Shown here: in pieces, positions 27,942-38,355 of the stretch
Layout: every line of letters begins with the position of its first letter
Numbering within the stretch: position 1 is the stretch's first letter
Source of the DNA: Limnobacter litoralis
GTDB taxonomy: Bacteria; Pseudomonadota; Gammaproteobacteria; Burkholderiales; Burkholderiaceae_B
DNA: 64,000 nt
Direction: 5' to 3'
NCBI RefSeq assembly: GCF_030160455.1
Contig: NZ_BSOJ01000028.1
Location: 1-64,000 of the forward strand
The notes under the pieces: generated by a model
What the model was told of the DNA's origin: nothing
The model's input: the letters and a program-made list of their open reading frames with translations, nothing else
Databases searched by the model: none
Translations under genes and position numbers: made by a program

Positions 27942-28745
27942 CTACGCTTTGCTTTCCAGTTGTAACAGGGCTGTCAGTTGCGACAGGCAGGCCAGGGCAA
28001 ACGTTTCGGTGCGCAATATTCGTCTTGAAAATTGCAGGGCCACCGCTCCGTGTTCAACAGCCCATTGGGTTTCTTCACCGCTCCAGCCGCCTTCGGGACC
28101 AACACAAATTACCAGAGTTTGCAAGGGTTGCGTAACTGGTAATTGACCTGATACGCCTGTGCACCACTGGGTCAGCGTGGTGCTGGCTTCGGGCGTGAAC
28201 CACAGCAACTGCGCGCCAGGGGCCTGTTTGGCGATGGATTCAAAGGCTGCTTCAAGCGACATGGCGGAATGCAGTTGGGGCAGGTGTTGACGTTCTGATT
28301 GCAAGCTGGCGGCTTGCACTATCCGTTCCCAGTGGGCGGCTTTTTTCTCTTGGCGTTCGGCGTTCAGCCGCACCACACTTCGTTGGGCCTGTATGGGCCA
28401 AAACGCGCTTGCACCCAATTCAGTGGTCTTTTCAAGCACCCAGTCCATTTTGTCGCCTTCGGGCAGGGCCTGGGCGATCCACACCGGGCGCATCAATTCC
28501 GTGTCTTGCAGGGGAAGGGGGCCTTCGGTGATTCGAATTTCTGCCAATTTTTTGGACAGGTAGTGCAGCGTGCCCATGAACTCTTGCCCACGGCCGTTCC
28601 ACACTCGCAATTCCGAATTGTCTCTAAGGCGCAACACTCGCGAGGCGTAGTGCATCAAGTCCTCAGACAGATCAAGGGCTTGGCCTTTGCTGTTGCATTC
28701 GCTCATGAAGAAGCGGCTTGTCTTTTTTGTGCTGCCAGTTGTCAT
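27942..28745 (-). CDS. rsmE: 16S rRNA m3U1498 methyltransferase RsmE
   Basis: A 267-residue SPOUT-class methyltransferase. It has SRFFMSE near residues 10-16, an N-terminal PUA-like domain ([20 protein letters not shown]), [25 protein letters not shown] in the centre, and the knot region [12 protein letters not shown] near 217-228 that binds S-adenosylmethionine. It is divergent from tkt, with 103 bases between the starts. Confidence 0.95.
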
Positions 28746-28848
28746 GTTTACCGATGTTTATTCAGCCAAAGGCCACTTTCGAAGGATAGCTTTGATAAAA
28801 TTCAGGTTTTCCCAACTTTGCTTTTGGCAAACCTGTCGCCCAACACCT

Positions 28849-30864
28849 ATGTCATCCTCTTCCAAGAACATGGCGAATGCCATTCGCGCACTGGCCATGG
28901 ACGCTGTTCAAGCCGCCAAATCCGGTCACCCAGGCATGCCAATGGGCATGGCCGAAATTGCAGTTGCCCTGTGGGCACGCCATTTGAAGCACAACCCGCA
29001 AAACCCGCACTGGGCTGATCGCGACCGTTTTGTGTTGTCAAACGGCCACGGTTCCATGCTGATTTACGCGCTGCTTCACCTGACCGGTTACGACTTGCCC
29101 ATTGAAGAGCTGCAAAATTTCCGTCAGTTGCATTCTAAAACACCAGGGCACCCTGAAGTGGACATCACCCCCGGAGTGGAAACCACAACTGGCCCGTTGG
29201 GGCAGGGTATTGCCAACGCCGTGGGCATGGCACTGGCTGAAAAGCTGCTGGCCGCAGAATTCAACGAACCCGGCTTCCCCGTGGTTGATCACAACACTTA
29301 CGTGTTTTTGGGCGACGGCTGCTTGATGGAGGGCATTTCTCACGAAGCCTGTTCACTGGCCGGCACACTGGGCTTGTCCAAGCTGATCGTCATGTACGAC
29401 GACAACGGCATCTCAATTGACGGCAAGGTTGAGCACTGGTTTGGCGACGACACGCCCAAGCGCTTTGAAGCCTACGGCTGGAATGTCATTCCCAACGTGA
29501 ATGGTCACGATGTGGACGCCGTGGATGCAGCCATTGCCCAGGCCCGCCAGAATGCGACACTGGACAAAGGCCCCACGTTGATTTGCTGCAAAACCAACAT
29601 CGGCGAAGGCTCGCCCAACATGGCCGGCACCGACAAAGTGCACGGTGCGCCACTGGGCGACAAGGAAATTGCCGCCACGCGCGAGGCAATCGGCTGGAAC
29701 CACCCACCGTTCCACATTCCTCCCGAGGTGTACAACGCCTGGGACGCACAGGTGGAAGGCGCAGCGCGTCAATCCGCTTGGGACAAACTGTTTGCCACTT
29801 ATGAAGCCAAGTTTCCTGCCAAGGCTGCTGAATTCAAGCGCCGCATGGCGGGTAACCTGCCGGCCGGCATTGAAGCCAAGTTGACAGGCTTGCTGCAGGC
29901 AGTGGCCGACAAGGCCGAAACCATTGCAACCCGCAAGGCCAGCCAGAATGCCATTACCCTGTTGGCGGCTGAATTGCCTGAATTGCTGGGCGGCTCTGCT
30001 GACCTGACTGGCTCAAACCTCACCAACTGGCCATCTTGCGTGGCGGTGCGCCGAAACGCCGACGGTTTTGTGGCGGGCAACCACGTTAACTGGGGCGTGC
30101 GTGAATTTGGGATGAGTGCCGCGCTGAACGGCGTGGCCCTTCACGGTGGTTACATTCCGTTTGGTGCCACTTTCCTGACTTTCTCGGATTACAGTCGCAA
30201 TGCCATCCGCATGGCTGCGCTCATGAAGAAGCGCAATATTTTTGTGTTCACCCACGACTCGATCGGTCTGGGTGAAGACGGCCCAACCCACCAGCCCGTG
30301 GAACATGCGGCCACACTGCGCCTCATTCCAAATCTGGATGTGTGGCGTCCCGCTGACGCGGTCGAATCCATGGCCGCCTGGAATGCAGCGGTGTTGCGTG
30401 CCAATGGTCCGAGCGCCCTGTTGTTCAGCCGCCAAAACCTGCCGCACGTGCCCCGCACTGCTGCCCAGCTTGAAAACACGTTAAAGGGCGGTTATGTGTT
30501 GTCTGACGCCGCCGATGCCAAGGTCACGCTGGTGGCCACGGGTTCTGAACTGGAATTGGTGCTGAAAGCACAAGAAGCTTTGCAAGCCAAAGGCGTGGTT
30601 GCCCGCGTGGTGTCCATGCCGTCTACCACGGTGTTTGACCGTCAAGACGCAGCCTACCGCGCGCAAGTGTTGGGCACAAAGCCGATGGTGTGTGTCGAGG
30701 CCGGCGTCACCGACGGCTGGTACAAGTACATCGCCGCTGCAGGTGCGAAAGGCAGCGTGGTCGGCATGCACAGCTTCGGTGAGTCTGCTCCGGCTGGCGA
30801 ACTGTTCAAATATTTCGGCATTACCGCCGACAAGGTGGCCGAGGCCGCTCTGTCGCTGATTTAA
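28849..30864 (+). CDS. tkt: Transketolase
   Basis: A 671-residue thiamine diphosphate enzyme of the pentose phosphate and Calvin pathways. It has [12 protein letters not shown] near 22-33, the ThDP motif [13 protein letters not shown] at 155-167 ending in NG at 186-187, and the transketolase signature RQNLPHVPR in the C-terminal half. The open frame extends 54 codons further upstream, but the ATG at 28849 matches the family start. It is followed by gapA after 35 bases. Confidence 0.97.
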
Positions 30865-30899
30865 CAGACTGATTTCATTTCTACTGAGGAGTTTTTGAC

Positions 30900-31910
30900 A
30901 TGACCATTCGCGTTGCCATCAACGGTTACGGCCGAATCGGCCGCAACGTTCTGCGTGCCCACTACGAAGGCGGTAAAAAGCACGACATCGAAATCGTAGC
31001 GATCAACGACCTGGGCGACCCCAAAACCAACGCCCACCTGACCCAGTACGACACCGCGCATGGCCGTTTCCCTGGCACCGTGTCGGTTGACGGCGACTAC
31101 ATGGTGGTCAACGGCGACAAAATCAAAGTGCTGGCGAACCGCAACCCGGCTGAGCTGCCATGGGGCGAGTTGGGCGTTGATGTGGTCATGGAGTGCACAG
31201 GCTTTTTCACCTCCAAAGAGAAAGCCTCTGCCCACCTGAAGGGCGGCGCAAAGAAGGTCATTATTTCCGCCCCCGGCGGCAAAGACGTGGACGCCACCGT
31301 GGTTTACGGTGTTAACCACAACGTGTTGAAGAGCACCGACACCGTAATCTCCAATGCGTCTTGCACCACCAACTGTTTGGCCCCTTTGGTCAAGCCACTG
31401 AACGACGCCATCGGCATTGAAACCGGCCTGATGACCACCGTTCACGCCTACACCAATGACCAGGTGTTGACCGACGTGTACCACGAAGACCTGCGTCGCG
31501 CTCGTTCAGCCACCATGAGCATGATCCCCACCAAAACCGGTGCGGCTGCTGCTGTGGGCCTGGTGTTACCAGAACTGAACGGCAAGCTGGACGGCTACGC
31601 CATCCGCGTACCAACCATCAACGTGTCCATGGTTGACCTGTCATTCATCGCCAGGCGTGAAACCACGGTGGATGAAATCAACAGCATCCTGAAGGCCGCT
31701 TCCGAAGGTCCGCTGAAAGGTGTGCTCGATTTCAACGAGGCACCCTTGGTGTCCATCGACTTCAACCACAACCCAGCGTCTTCCTCATACGACGCCACGC
31801 TGACCAAGGTCAGCGGCAAGCTGGTCAAGGTTTCCAGCTGGTACGACAACGAGTGGGGTTTCTCAAACCGCATGCTCGACACCACTGTGGCGCTGATGAA
31901 CGCCAAGTGA
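30900..31910 (+). CDS. gapA: Glyceraldehyde-3-phosphate dehydrogenase, type I
   Basis: A 336-residue NAD-binding enzyme beginning [15 protein letters not shown]. The catalytic Cys155 lies in [24 protein letters not shown] supplies the His and the C-terminal [12 protein letters not shown] closes the active site. A strong GAGGAG site precedes the ATG. Together with tkt it forms a short sugar-phosphate operon that ends at the hairpin at 31962. Confidence 0.98.
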
Positions 31911-31961
31911 TTGAAATACCCCCCCTCAAAGGGGGTAACCCCTTCATTTCAATGGAAAAGT

Positions 31962-31985
31962 AAGGCCCCTTAGCGGGCCTTTTTC
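31962..31985 (+). terminator. Intrinsic terminator after gapA
   Basis: The stem AAGGCCC/GGGCCTT with loop CTTAGC is followed by TTTTT. A second smaller hairpin, CCCCCTCAAAGGGGG, sits about 40 bases upstream, just beyond the gapA stop codon. Confidence 0.85.
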
Positions 31986-32046
31986 ATTGGTTTGAAAGCA
32001 GGCCTGGTTCGCTACATTGGAAGCATCCCAAGAAGTGAGCCACAGC

Positions 32047-34008
32047 ATGTTCCAAGCATTCAATGCCAAGCAGAATTCGTTCAAGTCAGTTAACCTGATT
32101 TTACTTTTCAAGCACGCCTGTATGGCGCTCTGTCTGTGGGGGTTGGCCGTGGGGGCCGCCCAGGCCGACAGTGGTCAGTTCATCATCAAGCTGAAAAATG
32201 CGGTCGAGCTGAGTTCAATGCCCACTGTGCGCAGATTGGATCACGATGGCCAGGAATTGGCGGATCTTATGCAGCGCAACGGCGTTGACGCCACGTGGTT
32301 GAGGCCTGGTGCGATCGGCATTCAAGTCATGAAGTGGGGGCCTTCCGTTCGTGAAAGCGACAAGCAGGCTTTGCTCAACCGCTTGCGCAGCGACCCCGAT
32401 GTTGAGTATGTACAAGAGGATCGCCCTGTTCGCGCCTTTGCCACGCCCACCGATTCGCAGTTTTCAAACCAGTGGGACTTGCGTTCGTTGGCGAACACCG
32501 CCGGTGCAAAATTTGACCAGGCTTGGGACATGATTCGAGGTTCGGCTGCCGTTGTAGTGGCTGTGATTGACACTGGGGTGGTGTTCTCGACACCAGACCT
32601 CTCCGGGCGGTTGCTCAGCGGTTACGACTTTATTTCAGACTCTGCCACAGCCAATGACGGAGACGGGCGCGACGCAGACCCTTCTGACCCTGGTAACTGG
32701 GTGAGTCAGGCTGATACACAAACCACGCAGTTCAGTGGTTGCTCAGTCAGCAATTCAAGCTGGCATGGCACGTTTGTGGCGGGTGAAATTGCAGCAGACA
32801 CCAACAACCAGTCTGACATTGCCGGTGCAGACTGGAACGTCAAAATTCTTCCAATTCGGGCGCTGGGCAAGTGCGGTGGCTCGCTTTCAGACGTGCTGGA
32901 TGGCATGCTGTGGGCCGCTGGCATTTCCGTACCCGGAGTGCCCAACAACACGAACCCTGCCGCAGTCATCAATTTGAGTTTGGGCAGTGCGTCAAGCTGC
33001 AGTACTTATGAACAATCTGTCGTTGATCGAGTCACCTCTGCCGGTACTTTGGTGGTGGCTGCCGCGGGCAACGGAGGCGGTGCGGTTGAGTCGCCCGCAA
33101 ACTGCAATGGTGTCATGGCCGTGGGGGCCTTGGACAAAGACGGAAGCCGGGCCTACTACAGTGCTGTGGGCAATGGCGTCACCCTGATGGCGCCGGGTGG
33201 GTATTACGACGGCATTGTGGGCCTTGGAAACAGTGGTACAACTACACCTTCATCGCCCACACTGGTTACAAAAACAGGCACCTCATTTTCTGCGCCTTTG
33301 GTGGCTGCCACAGGTGCCTTGTTGAAGTCGGTCAATCCAGCTTTAAGCCCGGCTCAAATTCGCAATTACATTACTCAGAATACATCGCCGTTTTTGGCCC
33401 CTGCTTCTCAAACCTGCACGGCCAACAGCGGCTATGCAACGTGTAACTGCACGACAGCGGTCTGCGGTGCGGGCATGTTGAATGCATTTGCCGCCGTCAA
33501 AGCGGCGCGCGGCAACTTGCCCCTTGCCAATGCGGTGTCCAGCAACAATGGTTTGGTGACCAGTGGCTATCAGCCTGCGTCTGCGTCAAGCAACGTGATC
33601 CTGAATGGTTCATCCAGTACAGCAGGTACAGGCAATACCATTGCTTCGTATGCCTGGCAGCAGGTGTCTGGTGAAACATTGATGACCGGCACCAACACCA
33701 ATGCCAACGTGACTTTGCCGCCGCCCCAAAACACCACAGACCTCGTTTTCAAGCTGACGGTGACCGATTCAGTGGGGCAGTCGCACACCAGCTACACTGC
33801 GCTTCGGGTGGTGGCCAGTGGCGGATCAAGTTCATCGCCAACCGTGGGCACCACGGGTGGATCGAGTACCCCGACGGCCACTTCAAGTACCTCTTCGTCT
33901 GGTTCGTCTGGCGGAGGTGGTGGCGGTGGTGCACTGTCTTTCTATGGGCTGGCCGGTTTGGCCCTGTTGCTGGCAGCTCTTCGAAAGGCCAACAGCAAAG
34001 CTGCGTAA
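32047..34008 (+). CDS. Subtilisin-family serine protease with GlyGly-CTERM tail
   Basis: A 653-residue exported S8 peptidase. A signal peptide (hydrophobic at 16-35, cleavage after AAQA at 40) and an inhibitor I9-like propeptide (about 45-130) precede the catalytic domain. The triad is Asp175 (AVIDTGV), His240 (SSWHGTFVAG) and Ser413 (GTSFSAP). A PKD-like or immunoglobulin-like segment follows at about 505-605, then a Ser/Thr/Gly linker. Seven glycines at 622-628, a hydrophobic helix at 629-645 and a basic end (RKANSKAA) form a GlyGly-CTERM sorting signal. Proteins with this tail are processed by rhombosortase, which is encoded next door on the opposite strand. The ATG at 32047 is preferred to a TTG at 32017. 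Confidence 0.9.
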   Translation: MFQAFNAKQNSFKSVNLILLFKHACMALCLWGLAVGAAQADSGQFIIKLKNAVELSSMPTVRRLDHDGQELADLMQRNGVDATWLRPGAIGIQVMKWGPSVRESDKQALLNRLRSDPDVEYVQEDRPVRAFATPTDSQFSNQWDLRSLANTAGAKFDQAWDMIRGSAAVVVAVIDTGVVFSTPDLSGRLLSGYDFISDSATANDGDGRDADPSDPGNWVSQADTQTTQFSGCSVSNSSWHGTFVAGEIAADTNNQSDIAGADWNVKILPIRALGKCGGSLSDVLDGMLWAAGISVPGVPNNTNPAAVINLSLGSASSCSTYEQSVVDRVTSAGTLVVAAAGNGGGAVESPANCNGVMAVGALDKDGSRAYYSAVGNGVTLMAPGGYYDGIVGLGNSGTTTPSSPTLVTKTGTSFSAPLVAATGALLKSVNPALSPAQIRNYITQNTSPFLAPASQTCTANSGYATCNCTTAVCGAGMLNAFAAVKAARGNLPLANAVSSNNGLVTSGYQPASASSNVILNGSSSTAGTGNTIASYAWQQVSGETLMTGTNTNANVTLPPPQNTTDLVFKLTVTDSVGQSHTSYTALRVVASGGSSSSPTVGTTGGSSTPTATSSTSSSGSSGGGGGGGALSFYGLAGLALLLAALRKANSKAA

Positions 34009-34559
34009 GCGAACCCCAGCACAATGCCACCCCGGTGCGCCTGGGTGGCAATTGCTCCACCGATGTGGGCATCCACATGTGGGCCTTGGGCCCATTCGAC
34101 GGTAAGCTTCGCCGCAAGGCCAACCGACAACAGCGTCAGCGGCAGGCTGGTATTTTGGGGTCTGTTTGGCTGGCACCAGGCCAGCGCCAAACACACCGCA
34201 AATTGAAAATGCAGCGCGCCGCTCAGGCCGCAGTACCACTGAATGGGCTCAACGAATTCCAGGTAGAACGCCACCGCAAACAGCGAGGCGAGCTGAGTCA
34301 AAAGCCATTGCCAGGGGTGCAGTACCCGTTCGAATCCCCAGTTCAAAAGTGCCATGCCTGCCAGGTTCAGCGCAAGGTGCGTCCAGCTGAGATGCACAAA
34401 CTGCGCAAGCAGTAAGTAAATGAAAAATGAGTCAAATAAATCAGTGTGTTGCCTGTAAAACAGCGGAAAATAAAGCTGCGTAGCAAAAGCAGCCACTGCA
34501 ATTGCAATCGAGGGCAAATAAAGCCGGAAATCGGGTTTGTCGGGGGTATAATTACGCAC
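33942..34559 (-). CDS. Rhombosortase (rhomboid-family intramembrane protease)
   Basis: A 205-residue polytopic protein with about six hydrophobic helices. It has the rhomboid-like [14 protein letters not shown] segment (His56, His61, Asn65), the nucleophile motif GLSGALH with Ser113, and DAHIGGA with His165 as the likely dyad partner. Size and motifs match rhombosortase, which cleaves GlyGly-CTERM tails near the glycine run so that substrates can leave the inner membrane. The only substrate visible here is the adjacent protease. The last ~21 codons are antisense to the protease tail. The start is a GTG at 34559, and it overlaps the pgk promoter region. Confidence 0.85.
34547..34552 (+). promoter_or_regulatory. 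Putative -10 element of the pgk promoter
   Basis: A perfect TATAAT lies 39 bases before the pgk start codon, behind a G run. I see no good -35 match at the usual distance, so an activator may be needed. It sits on the start codon region of the divergent rhombosortase gene. Confidence 0.45.
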
Positions 34560-34591
34560 TGTTTTTATTTATCTCTGGGCGAGTACCACTC

Positions 34592-35776
34592 ATGCTTCGT
34601 TTCTTGCGGCTAACCGATCAAAAAGTCAGTGGTCAGCGCGTGCTGATCCGCGTCGATTTTAACGTGCCATTCGACTCACAGGGTCGAATTACTGAAGATA
34701 CCCGCATTCGCGCGTCCTTGCCCGGAATTCAATACTGCATCAACAACAATGCAGCGCTGATGCTGACCTCCCACCTTGGCCGCCCGGTTGAGGGTCAATA
34801 CGATGAAACGCTGAGCCTGGCCACTGTGGCACAGCGCCTGTCTGAATTGCTGAACAAGCCCGTGCGCTTGGTTAAAAACTGGGTGGAAGAGGGTGTGTCT
34901 GTTCAACCCGGCGAAGTGGTCATTCTTGAAAACTGCCGCTTCAACAAAGGCGAAAAGAAAAACGACCCTGTGCTTAGCCAGAAAATTGCGGCCCTGTGCG
35001 ACATTTACGTCAATGACGCTTTTGGCACAGCCCACCGCGCTGAAGCCACCACACACGGCGCAGCTCAGTACGCAAAAATTGCCTGTGCCGGCCCCTTGCT
35101 GGCCGCCGAACTGGATGCATTGGGCGCAGCATTGTCTCAGCCGCGTCGCCCCATGGTGGCCATTGTGGCGGGCTCGAAAGTGTCTACCAAGCTAACCATT
35201 CTTGAAAGTCTGGCCGAAAAGGTCGACCAATTGATCGTAGGCGGCGGTATCGCCAATACTTTTATGGCTGCGCAAGGTTTGCCCATTGGCAAGTCACTGT
35301 CAGAGCCCGACCTGGTTGATCAGGCCAAGGCCATTATTTCAAAAATGCAGGCGCGCGGCGCCGCGGTGCCCATTCCAACCGACGTGGTGGTGGGTGCTGA
35401 GTTCTCTTCTGCGGCACAAGCCACCTGCAAGCCCGTAGCACAGGTTTCCGATGCCGACATGATTTTCGACATTGGCCCAGAAACTGCCGAAACACTGACT
35501 GGTATTCTTGAAAAGGCTGGAACCATCGTCTGGAACGGCCCGGTCGGCGTGTTTGAATTTGATCAGTTTGGCAAAGGCACTGAACGAATCGCCAAGGCCA
35601 TTGCCAAGTCCGACGCCTTTTCAATTGCCGGTGGCGGCGACACCCTGGCTGCCATTGCAAAATATGGCATTGCAGACCAGGTCAGCTACATTTCCACCGG
35701 CGGTGGCGCCTTCCTTGAGTTTTTGGAAGGCAAAACACTGCCCGCAGTCGACATTCTTCAGCAGCGCGCTGCCTGA
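34592..35776 (+). CDS. pgk: Phosphoglycerate kinase
   Basis: A 394-residue two-lobed kinase. The N-terminal signature [13 protein letters not shown] near 14-26, LTSHLGRP near 62-69, and the C-terminal nucleotide-binding GGGDTLAAI and [14 protein letters not shown] are all present. It converts 1,3-bisphosphoglycerate to 3-phosphoglycerate with ATP formation. The start at 34592 follows the family. It is first in the pgk-pyk-fba run. Confidence 0.98.
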
Positions 35777-35808
35777 ACCACCCCAACTTTTGCAGGAACA
35801 CTGAATTC

Positions 35809-37254
35809 ATGCTGATGACTCGCCAAACCAAGATCGTTGCCACCCTCGGCCCAGCGTCCACCGACCCGGTGGTGCTGGAGAAGATGATCTCGGCCGGGCT
35901 GAATGTGGTTCGTGTCAATTTCTCGCACGGTTCTGCCGATGAGCACATCGGGCGTGTGCGAATGGTTCGCGAAATTGCTGCGCGCTTGCACAAGGACATC
36001 GCGGTCATGGCTGACCTTCAGGGTCCCAAAATTCGCGTGGGCCTGTTTGAAAATGGATTTGTCCAGCTGGATGTGGGCTCCAGTTTCATTCTGGATGCGC
36101 AGTGCAAAATGGGCAACCAGGATCGCGTTGGGCTTGACTATCCCGAATTGGTCAATGACGTGAAGGCCGGTGACACCTTGCTGCTGGACGACGGCAAAAT
36201 CGTATTCAAGGTCAAAAAGGTGGCAGGCAGTGAAATTCACGTTGAAACGCTGGTGGGTGGACCACTGAAAAACCGCAAGGGCATCAACAAGCAGGGTGGT
36301 GGTTTGTCCGCGCCAGCGCTCACTGCCAAAGACATGGAAGACATTCGCACCGCTGTGGCTTTTGAGGCCGATTACATTGCGGTGTCCTTCCCCAAAAGCG
36401 GTGCTGACATGTACATGGCTCGCGAGCTCACTCGCGCAGCCGGTGGCCACGCTTTGATGATTGCCAAAATCGAACGCTGTGAAGCACTTGAAAACATTCA
36501 GGAATTGATCAAAAGCTGCGATGGCCTGATGGTCGCCCGTGGTGACCTGGCTGTTGAAATTGGCGACGCCGCGGTGCCTGCTGAGCAAAAGCGCCTGATT
36601 CGCGCGGCGCGTGAACACAACAAGCTGACCATCACCGCCACGCAAATGATGGAGAGCATGATCGAAAGCCCTGTGCCTACGCGTGCAGAGGTGTCAGATG
36701 TGGCCAACGCAGTGCTTGACGGCACCGACGCGGTGATGTTGTCTGCTGAAACAGCCGCAGGCAAGTTTCCAGTGGAAACCATCATGGCGATGTCGCGCAC
36801 TTGCATTGAGGCCGAAAAATCCGCCAAGTCCACACTGGATGCTGATTTCCTGAACCGCAAATTCACCCGTGTTGACCAGTCCATCGCAATGGCAGCACTG
36901 TTTACGGCTCATCATCTGGATGTGAAGGCCATTGCGGCTTTGACCCAGTCCGGCTCAACCGCTTTGTGGATGTCTCGCCTGAATTGTGGCGTGCCCATTT
37001 TTGCATTGACGCCCGAAGAAAAGACCCGCAGGCGCTTGTCGCTCTACCGTGACGTGCGCACGGTGATGATGCAATATGAAACCGAAGACCGTGAGATTTT
37101 GCTGGCAAAAGCGGAGAAAGCGTTGCTGGATGCCAAAGTGGTCGAGATGGGCGATCTCATCGTCATCACCATTGGCGAGCCGATTGGCAAGTCAGGCGGC
37201 ACCAACACCATGAAGATTGTTCGCATTGGCGAGCACATTGGCCAGACACAATAA
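35809..37254 (+). CDS. pyk: Pyruvate kinase
   Basis: A 481-residue enzyme that makes pyruvate and ATP from phosphoenolpyruvate. It starts RQTKIVATLGPAS, has NFSHG near 40, ADLQGPKIRVG near 68, and the catalytic segment LMIAKIERCEALENI near 217 with the active-site Lys. MVARGDLAVEIG and TATQMMESMIESPVPTRAEV follow. The start could be the ATG at 35809 or the one two codons later. It follows pgk by 32 bases. Confidence 0.97.
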   Translation: MLMTRQTKIVATLGPASTDPVVLEKMISAGLNVVRVNFSHGSADEHIGRVRMVREIAARLHKDIAVMADLQGPKIRVGLFENGFVQLDVGSSFILDAQCKMGNQDRVGLDYPELVNDVKAGDTLLLDDGKIVFKVKKVAGSEIHVETLVGGPLKNRKGINKQGGGLSAPALTAKDMEDIRTAVAFEADYIAVSFPKSGADMYMARELTRAAGGHALMIAKIERCEALENIQELIKSCDGLMVARGDLAVEIGDAAVPAEQKRLIRAAREHNKLTITATQMMESMIESPVPTRAEVSDVANAVLDGTDAVMLSAETAAGKFPVETIMAMSRTCIEAEKSAKSTLDADFLNRKFTRVDQSIAMAALFTAHHLDVKAIAALTQSGSTALWMSRLNCGVPIFALTPEEKTRRRLSLYRDVRTVMMQYETEDREILLAKAEKALLDAKVVEMGDLIVITIGEPIGKSGGTNTMKIVRIGEHIGQTQ

Positions 37255-37290
37255 GACAGATTCATTTATTTTTTATTCGGAGACTTTCCC

Positions 37291-38355
37291 ATGCCACTCG
37301 TATCCATGCGCCAATTACTGGATCATGCCGCTGAAAACGCATACGGCATTCCAGCGTTCAACGTCAACAACCTGGAACAGGTTCAGGCTGTGATGGCCGC
37401 GGCCGATGCAGTGGGTGCTCCAGTTATTCTTCAAGCCAGTGCAGGTGCGCGCAAATACGCAGGCGAGCCATTCATCAAGCACCTTATCCAGGCCGCCGTT
37501 GAGGCCTATCCGCACATCCCCCTGGTGATGCACCAGGACCATGGCACCAGCCCGAAAGTGTGCGAAGGCGCAATTGGTTTGGGCTTCGGTTCCGTCATGA
37601 TGGACGGCTCATTGATGGAAGACGGCAAAACCCCCGCCAGCTTTGAATACAACATGAATGTCACCAAAACCGTGGTGGATATGGCGCACAAAGTCGGCGT
37701 CACGGTTGAAGGTGAACTGGGTTGCTTGGGCAATTTGGAGACCGGCGAAGCCGGCGAAGAGGACGGCATTGGCGCCGAGGGCAAGCTGGACCACAGCCAG
37801 ATGCTGACTGACCCCGAAGAAGCCGCTGTGTTCGTTAAGGCGACCCAACTGGACGCGCTGGCCATTGCCATCGGCACCAGCCACGGCGCTTACAAATTCA
37901 GCCGCAAGCCCACAGGTGACATTTTGGCAATTTCCCGCGTGAAAGAAATTCACGCCCGCATCCCGAATACACACCTCGTGATGCATGGCTCTTCGTCTGT
38001 CCCTGCCGATCTGCTGGCCATCATCAACCAGTTTGGCGGCAAGATGAAAGAAACCTACGGCGTGCCTGTGGAGGAAATTCAGGAAGCGATCAAGTACGGT
38101 GTTCGCAAGATCAACATCGACACCGACATCCGCCTGGCCATGACCGGTGCAGTGCGCAAGTTCCAGTTTGAAAACCCCGGCAAATTCGACATGCGCGAGT
38201 GGATGAAGCCCGCACGTGAAGCCGCCAAGGCCATTTGCAAGCAGCGTTACCTTGAATTTGGTTGCGAAGGACAAGCCGGTAAAATCAAGGCGATCAATCT
38301 GGTCGACATGGCCGCCAAGTACGCCAAGGGCGAACTGGCCCAGATCGTTCAGTAA
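37291..38355 (+). CDS. fba: Fructose-bisphosphate aldolase, class II
   Basis: A 354-residue zinc aldolase. Asp83-His84 in VMHQDHGTS near 79-87 supply the catalytic Asp and a zinc ligand. [12 protein letters not shown] near 132-143 and [10 protein letters not shown] near 227-236 give further ligands, and [12 protein letters not shown] near 266-277 is the phosphate-binding region. It works in glycolysis and the Calvin cycle. It follows pyk by 36 bases and is closed by a terminator. Confidence 0.97.

Follow-up and report, generated by a model that had tools for sequence, protein, structure and literature searches.

Genes and Features of the Locus

The window, i.e., the whole 64,000-nucleotide stretch of Limnobacter litoralis DNA that was analyzed, contains an S8 subtilase gene (32047..34008, + strand, 653 aa) and, converging on it, a rhombosortase gene (33942..34559, − strand, 205 aa, GTG start), with the two coding ends overlapping by 67 bases (33942..34008, both strands). 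Upstream of this pair lies gapA (30900..31910, +), with a terminator-like hairpin and T run at its 3′ side (31962..31984, +); this element is weak evidence alone, as the scan found 3 in the region against 4.1 expected from shuffles. On the other side is pgk (34592..35776, +), the divergent neighbor of the rhombosortase, the two starts being 32 bases apart on opposite strands. A search of 28000–38000 against Rfam returned no match. The coordinates, strands, lengths, and 67-base overlap agree with those of an earlier note on this DNA.

The Subtilase and Its Tail

Regarding the protease, it has a signal peptide (assigned by eye), a catalytic domain, a PKD-like domain, and a C-terminal GlyGly-CTERM sorting tail; Pfam places PF00082 (Peptidase_S8) at residues 168–446 with 165.4 bits, the cut-off being 21.8, and also reports PF22352 with 44.9 bits. 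The D, H, and S motifs of the S8 family were read by eye as DTGV, SWHGT, and GTSFSAP. The tail (33910..34005, +) starts with a run of seven glycines (33910–33930), continues with a hydrophobic stretch, and ends in RKANSKAA, so that the sequence itself contains all three parts of the signal: a glycine motif without cysteine, a hydrophobic helix, and a basic end. The earlier description of an S8 protease with such an end was thus borne out, with TIGR03501 scoring the tail just below its cut-off (14 bits versus 15.5); when the L. litoralis genome was searched with this model at E ≤ 10, the locus tail was the sole match. A tail profile named A1, built from 13 locus tails of the genus, gave 50.8 bits, a value to be read with the locus tail itself being one of the rows of the profile.

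The VesB protein requires Pro395 of its tail helix, according to the accessible text of PMC11389362, and inspection of the locus tail revealed no proline; therefore, the processing of this subtilase is not certain. Seven of the 13 A1 tails, as well as both other tailed subtilases of L. litoralis (see below), have a proline near the helix start, its equivalence to Pro395 being putative.

The Rhombosortase

As for the convergent gene, its product matches the Rhomboid family PF01694 with 41 bits, and TIGR03902, the rhombosortase model, is its sole NCBIfam match at E ≤ 1, with an E-value of 7e-23 and 81.3 bits against a slightly higher cut-off of 84. Searching the genome with TIGR03902 gave two matches, with the locus protein as the best (81.5 versus 13.6 bits); across the genus the scores range from 66 to 85 bits, and they exceed the cut-off in 1 of 16 genomes. 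The genome has a single PF01694 match over cut-off, so the check for further rhomboids proposed in the earlier note yielded no second one.

Three motifs characterize the family as given in the accessible part of PMC3237569: GLSGxLH, AHxxGxxxG, and WRxxS/T, the last in the first loop. They were sought in an alignment of 17 rows, corresponding to 16 Limnobacter genomes and G027, which belongs to another genus of the same family. Residues W108, Y109, the GLSGALH block with the active Ser113 and the stacking His117, and the pair H175-R176 are invariant in 17/17 rows; the pattern AHxxGxxxG, which holds the catalytic His of the last helix, reads AHRGGIVLG at 174–182 and recurs in every row with A or G as its first letter. 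Of the two motifs singled out previously, GLSGALH thus stands, and DAHIGGA does not, since its His163 is not kept and the invariant histidine is H175. WRxxS/T was found in 0/17 rows, and this missing motif may account for the TIGR03902 scores below the cut-off.

The AlphaFold2 model, computed with 21 rows, has the rhomboid fold with a pLDDT of 87.5 and a pTM of 0.86; Ser113 starts the fourth of six long helices, by our own count, and His175 lies close to the beginning of the last one, in agreement with RssP, whose helices 4 and 6 carry S102 and H160, as described in the accessible text of PMC11389362. Foldseek against the PDB ranked GlpG structures at all positions from 1 to 33 (probability 1.00, best E 1.2e-3, TM by query 0.50–0.59), and the sequence search returned 13 GlpG chains with E from 0.0035 to 0.0069. 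Finally, the protein co-occurs with GlyGly-CTERM proteins in 15 of 16 genus genomes; none was found in G002, a draft that is 85% complete and whose subtilase runs off its contig. The identification made in the earlier note is supported by E-value, motif, and fold: the 205-aa protein is a near-cut-off member of the rhombosortase family, recognized by motif, fold, and genome partners and not by score.

Scanning contigs with the rhombosortase alignment detected 89 relatives, of which the best 80 were kept, and these 80 include Limnobacter sp. MED105, L. alexandrii, L. parvus, and L. humi; the single-protein scan gave 77 pattern matches and 0 relatives. At L032 and other Limnobacter loci there is mostly no ATG or GTG where the L. 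litoralis gene has its GTG start; in loci of this type, the start may be a TTG three codons earlier, behind the conserved AAGGAAGG.

Number of Substrates

The earlier note had proposed a dedicated system with one enzyme and one substrate, and had suggested a search for other GlyGly-CTERM tails in the genome. For this search, A1 was run over 36 genomes (16 of the genus and 20 others), and in L. litoralis it recovered, along with the locus tail, two more, on contigs C15 (E 1.6e-6) and C6 (E 0.0033). Both proteins are S8 subtilases whose C-terminus has a glycine run followed by a hydrophobic helix and a basic end, and the three genes that match PF00082 at E ≤ 1e-8 in this genome are all GlyGly-tailed. 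The claim of a dedicated system was therefore given up once A1 had found the further tails; TIGR03501 alone would have wrongly supported it.

At E ≤ 0.012, A1 matched 15 of the 16 genus genomes (where 13 of the locus tails match by construction) and one genome among the 20 others, G041 (E 0.0101), a hit that was rejected on inspection as an internal glycine run. With the same threshold, and with every tail confirmed as the terminus of its reading frame, 14 of the 16 Limnobacter genomes have from two to five tails, the exceptions being G010 (65% complete) with one and G002 with none. MED105 (G005) has four targets by the A1 profile versus the one counted in 2011. Untailed S8 genes also exist: they are one of four in each of MED105 (L243 stretch, L232), G006 (L233), and G027.

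The S8 tree was computed on 52 proteins (three of G021 gave no row) and contains three sets, namely the locus set, set B (13 of 16 genus genomes), and set C (14 of 16). One G027 sequence falls with each of the three. Four more tailed proteins, from G008, G012, and G014, are outside these sets, and the tree program flags long branches for these and for G027_C84. As for the secretion machinery, the GspD secretin is over the cut-off in 16/16 genus genomes.

Tails of this kind also occur on other proteins. In three genus genomes (L174, L186, L199), a GlyGly-like tail ends a protein of about 686 aa that is likely a non-protease target; the L174 copy has a PAF-acetylhydrolase-type Pfam match, and the other two are alike by sequence. 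In L181 and L184, a protein of 862–899 aa has a GlyGly-like tail, and that of L181 is without a Pfam match.

Because L. litoralis and most of the genus have further tailed proteins, the arrangement is very probably many-to-one. The opposite view, that the enzyme processes its neighbor subtilase only and that the remaining tailed proteins remain in the membrane or depend on some other route, would agree with TIGR03501 reporting the locus tail only, with the subtilase–rhombosortase adjacency shared by 15 of 16 genus genomes, and with the adjacent single-target pairs known from the accessible text of PMC3237569; it is nonetheless quite unlikely, as the two additional L. litoralis subtilases have full tripartite tails, related tailed sets are found in most genus members and in G027, and the genome has only one PF01694 match over the cut-off.

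Position between gapA and pgk

The order gapA–subtilase–rhombosortase–pgk occurs in 13 of 16 genus genomes, and 15 of 16 have the subtilase, rhombosortase, and pgk side by side. The contig end truncates gapA or pgk in G008 and G013, and no gapA was seen within the 3–4 kb read upstream in G015 and G010. The divergent genus member G002 (L031) has the rhombosortase beside pgk, with another gene replacing the subtilase, and its locus-type subtilase is on a separate, cut contig (L236).

Outside the genus, 20 of 24 genomes were read for this comparison: 18 of these 20, among them every one of the 8 from the same family, have pgk directly after gapA, with 23–213 bp between the two, and the two remaining have no gapA beside pgk. 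Since gapA and pgk are contiguous in 18 of the 20 relatives, something was inserted in Limnobacter, and the spacing comparison thus upholds the earlier suggestion of an insertion. The further suggestion of a self-contained cassette is not supported: in G027 (L045), the rhombosortase stands alone between gapA and pgk, and the subtilase that belongs to the locus set (tree support 98/92 in the 52-protein tree and 87/85 in a smaller one) is on another contig; this genome has three subtilases with GlyGly-like tails, as judged by eye, all on other contigs. The enzyme being present without an adjoining subtilase, the two parts are separable.

The Convergent Overlap

The overlap of the two coding ends had been regarded as one of the unusual parts of the locus, with the sorting helix of the protease and the last helix of the rhombosortase on opposite strands of the same DNA. 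In L. litoralis, 13 of the 16 residues of the protease helix core are inside the overlap, versus 0–4 in the other 13 pairs, and this helix lies across from the hydrophilic C-terminus of the rhombosortase, while the basic tail of the protease faces ALLLAAY; the two hydrophobic helices are thus not opposite each other.

Overlaps exist in 14 of the 15 adjacent genus pairs, with lengths of 67, 35, 44, 49, and 27 bases and, nine times, 47 bases, and with phases 0/1/2 represented by 1, 2, and 11 pairs; the fifteenth pair, in G010, has a gap of 111 bp in its place, in a draft genome with frameshifts. The mean pairwise identity over 14 loci is 0.60, 0.52, and 0.46 in the consecutive blocks of 33934–34008, the last being the lowest of the stretch, and it is 0.62–0.74 just upstream, 0.69–0.72 just downstream, and 0.52–0.64 deeper in the rhombosortase. 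As background, some convergent overlaps longer than 60 bp may be real, according to the accessible text of PMC2478687, and overlap lengths differ between close species in that of PMC4161906.

A functional antisense overlap, for instance one that couples the genes via antisense transcripts or a shared coding constraint, could be argued from its presence in 14 of 15 genus pairs and in the held-out genome L090, which has 47 bases, and from the recurrence of 47 bp in 9 of 14 pairs. This role was rejected on phase, length, and conservation, and we give it very little chance: the lengths drift from 27 to 67 bases and through all three phases, the identity inside is below that of both flanks (with the reservation that deeper rhombosortase blocks reach 0.52 too), G010 has its 111-bp gap (with the draft caveat), and the corresponding pairs of two Derxia and a Cupriavidus are separated by 9, 44, and 15 bp. 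From these alignments, the 67-base overlap looks incidental and not special.

A TATAAT Box in the First Codons of the Rhombosortase Gene

At the other end of the rhombosortase gene, codons 3–5 contain, on the opposite strand, a TATAAT (34547..34552, +; ATTATA in the rhombosortase reading) that is the predicted −10 box of pgk. All 17 loci with the insertion have TATAAT 41–49 bp before the pgk start, and 0 of 20 loci without the insertion have it within 110 bases of pgk, the starts being set by protein alignment and not curated; the shuffled chance is about 4% per sequence. The held-out L090 agrees.

At the codon level, Tyr4 is TAT in 17/17 rows versus 39 TAT and 39 TAC elsewhere in these rhombosortase genes, and only Tyr4 and His175 are single-codon columns among the 52 conserved ones. 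The residue before Tyr4 varies between Asn and Asp with the box kept; the G002 box is displaced by one codon and may even precede the true start of the gene. With G002 left out, the longest DNA stretch that is invariant in the rhombosortase gene is ATTATA (6 nt) over 16 rows and AATTATA (7 nt) over six deep lineages; with G002 included, the invariant run at the box shrinks to 4 nt, and two other runs have 5 nt.

TATAAT is probably the own −10 box of pgk, a box that pgk would need because the insertion and the possible gapA terminator (31962–31984) cut it off from upstream. We lean somewhat towards a scenario in which the rhombosortase insertion split a conserved tkt–gapA–pgk row and brought a pgk promoter, with its −10 box antisense in the first codons, so that the meaningful overlap would be at the head of the gene and not at its tail. 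The main competitor is a codon-level coincidence, with a conserved Asn-Tyr at the rhombosortase start and no promoter: the promoter scan of the region found no full site at TATAAT (0 versus 1.5 expected) and no −35 partner, the sequences are related by descent so that 17/17 are not 17 independent events, and the run of 4 nt with G002 aligned is shorter than two others. Such a coincidence has a fair chance and is the less likely reading, given the TAT bias at Tyr4, the persistence of the box through the Asn/Asp change and its shift by one codon in G002, and its rank as the longest invariant run when G002 is set aside.

Literature searches combining Limnobacter, phosphoglycerate kinase, and promoter found nothing, and those combining rhombosortase and phosphoglycerate kinase found, in the text accessible, nothing beyond Acinetobacter proteomics.

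Comparison with Known Systems

Adjacent, dedicated GlyGly-CTERM/rhombosortase pairs were described by Haft and Varghese in 2011 (PMC3237569), including Burkholderiales such as Cupriavidus and Ralstonia. The Limnobacter locus is like these pairs in having a single rhombosortase beside a GlyGly-CTERM target, and differs from them, as far as the accessible part of that paper describes them, in having more targets elsewhere in the genome. That part reports no multi-target genome with a target adjoining the enzyme except Cupriavidus metallidurans, which has two rhombosortases, with Comamonas testosteroni near; it also tables Limnobacter MED105 with one GlyGly target and no rhombosortase. In our searches, no other paper was found naming both Limnobacter and GlyGly-CTERM, and Limnobacter with subtilisin retrieved only, in the text accessible, echovirus inactivation by lake bacteria and a pepper microRNA study.

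The system also resembles RssP/VesB of Vibrio cholerae, as documented in the accessible parts of PMC6219818, PMC11389362, and PMC13393428: there, a rhomboid cuts a serine protease that has a GlyGly-CTERM tail and depends on type II secretion, in a many-to-one relation. The Limnobacter locus differs from RssP/VesB in its substrate, an S8 subtilase, in the adjacency of the genes, and in a tail without the VesB-type proline.

Closer in layout are the tail-to-tail subtilase/rhombosortase pairs of Derxia lacustris (gap of 44 bp), D. gummosa (9 bp), Cupriavidus neocaledonicus (15 bp), and Burkholderiaceae bacterium PBA (overlap of 74 bp), with the S8 domain assigned by Pfam for the last two and by sequence for Derxia. 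Like the Limnobacter locus, they have a convergent GlyGly-tailed subtilase next to the rhombosortase; unlike it, the Derxia and Cupriavidus pairs do not overlap, and none of these subtilases is in the Limnobacter locus set, the Derxia and Cupriavidus neighbors being outside sets A and B of the smaller tree. A crude rule of our own for GlyGly-like ends, applied to 66 loci (L099–L164), flagged 10: L104 (the rhombosortase itself), L121 (which looked false), and L143 and L150 (not convergent neighbors) were discarded, and six have a convergent target, namely the subtilases of L124, L141, L161, and L163, a Calx-beta/LVIVD protein that is not S8 in L122 (gap 182), and an unclassified protein in L133 (gap 438).

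Proposed Explanation and Significance

The families of the two proteins, the tails and their number, GspD, and the conserved place are all taken from the genomes analyzed here. We judge it highly probable that the Limnobacter rhombosortase sits beside one of several GlyGly-CTERM substrates and serves two other subtilases also, that the overlap is incidental, and that the gene houses the predicted −10 box of pgk. By analogy with Vibrio, from which the cut site is carried over, the enzyme would cut the GlyGly-CTERM tail of the neighbor subtilase, the processed protein would undergo conjugation and reach the cell surface, and the same enzyme would serve the two other L. litoralis subtilases; in V. 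cholerae, rhombosortase processing puts the protein on the cell surface and does not set it free, according to the accessible text of PMC6219818 and PMC11389362. The 67-base overlap would have arisen secondarily, as the stop codons of a tightly packed convergent pair drifted, and the rhombosortase gene would carry the −10 box of the divergent pgk. The points counted against this explanation are TIGR03902 and TIGR03501 scores just under the cut-offs, WRxxS/T in 0/17 rows, the proline-free tail, and the untailed S8 genes of G005 and G006.

In conclusion, adjacent rhombosortase/GlyGly-CTERM pairs are known since 2011, and what is new here is the corrected MED105 entry and the TATAAT before pgk. 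The Limnobacter rhombosortase removes one of the few listed exceptions (MED105) to the rule that GlyGly-CTERM and rhombosortase co-occur, and both curated models, TIGR03902 and TIGR03501, narrowly miss Limnobacter members. Limnobacter is also a genus with a target adjoining the enzyme despite several targets, a situation for which the accessible text of PMC3237569 gives Cupriavidus metallidurans only. If real, the embedded promoter, whose prediction within the rhombosortase gene is directly testable, would tie the central-carbon gene pgk to a secretion gene.
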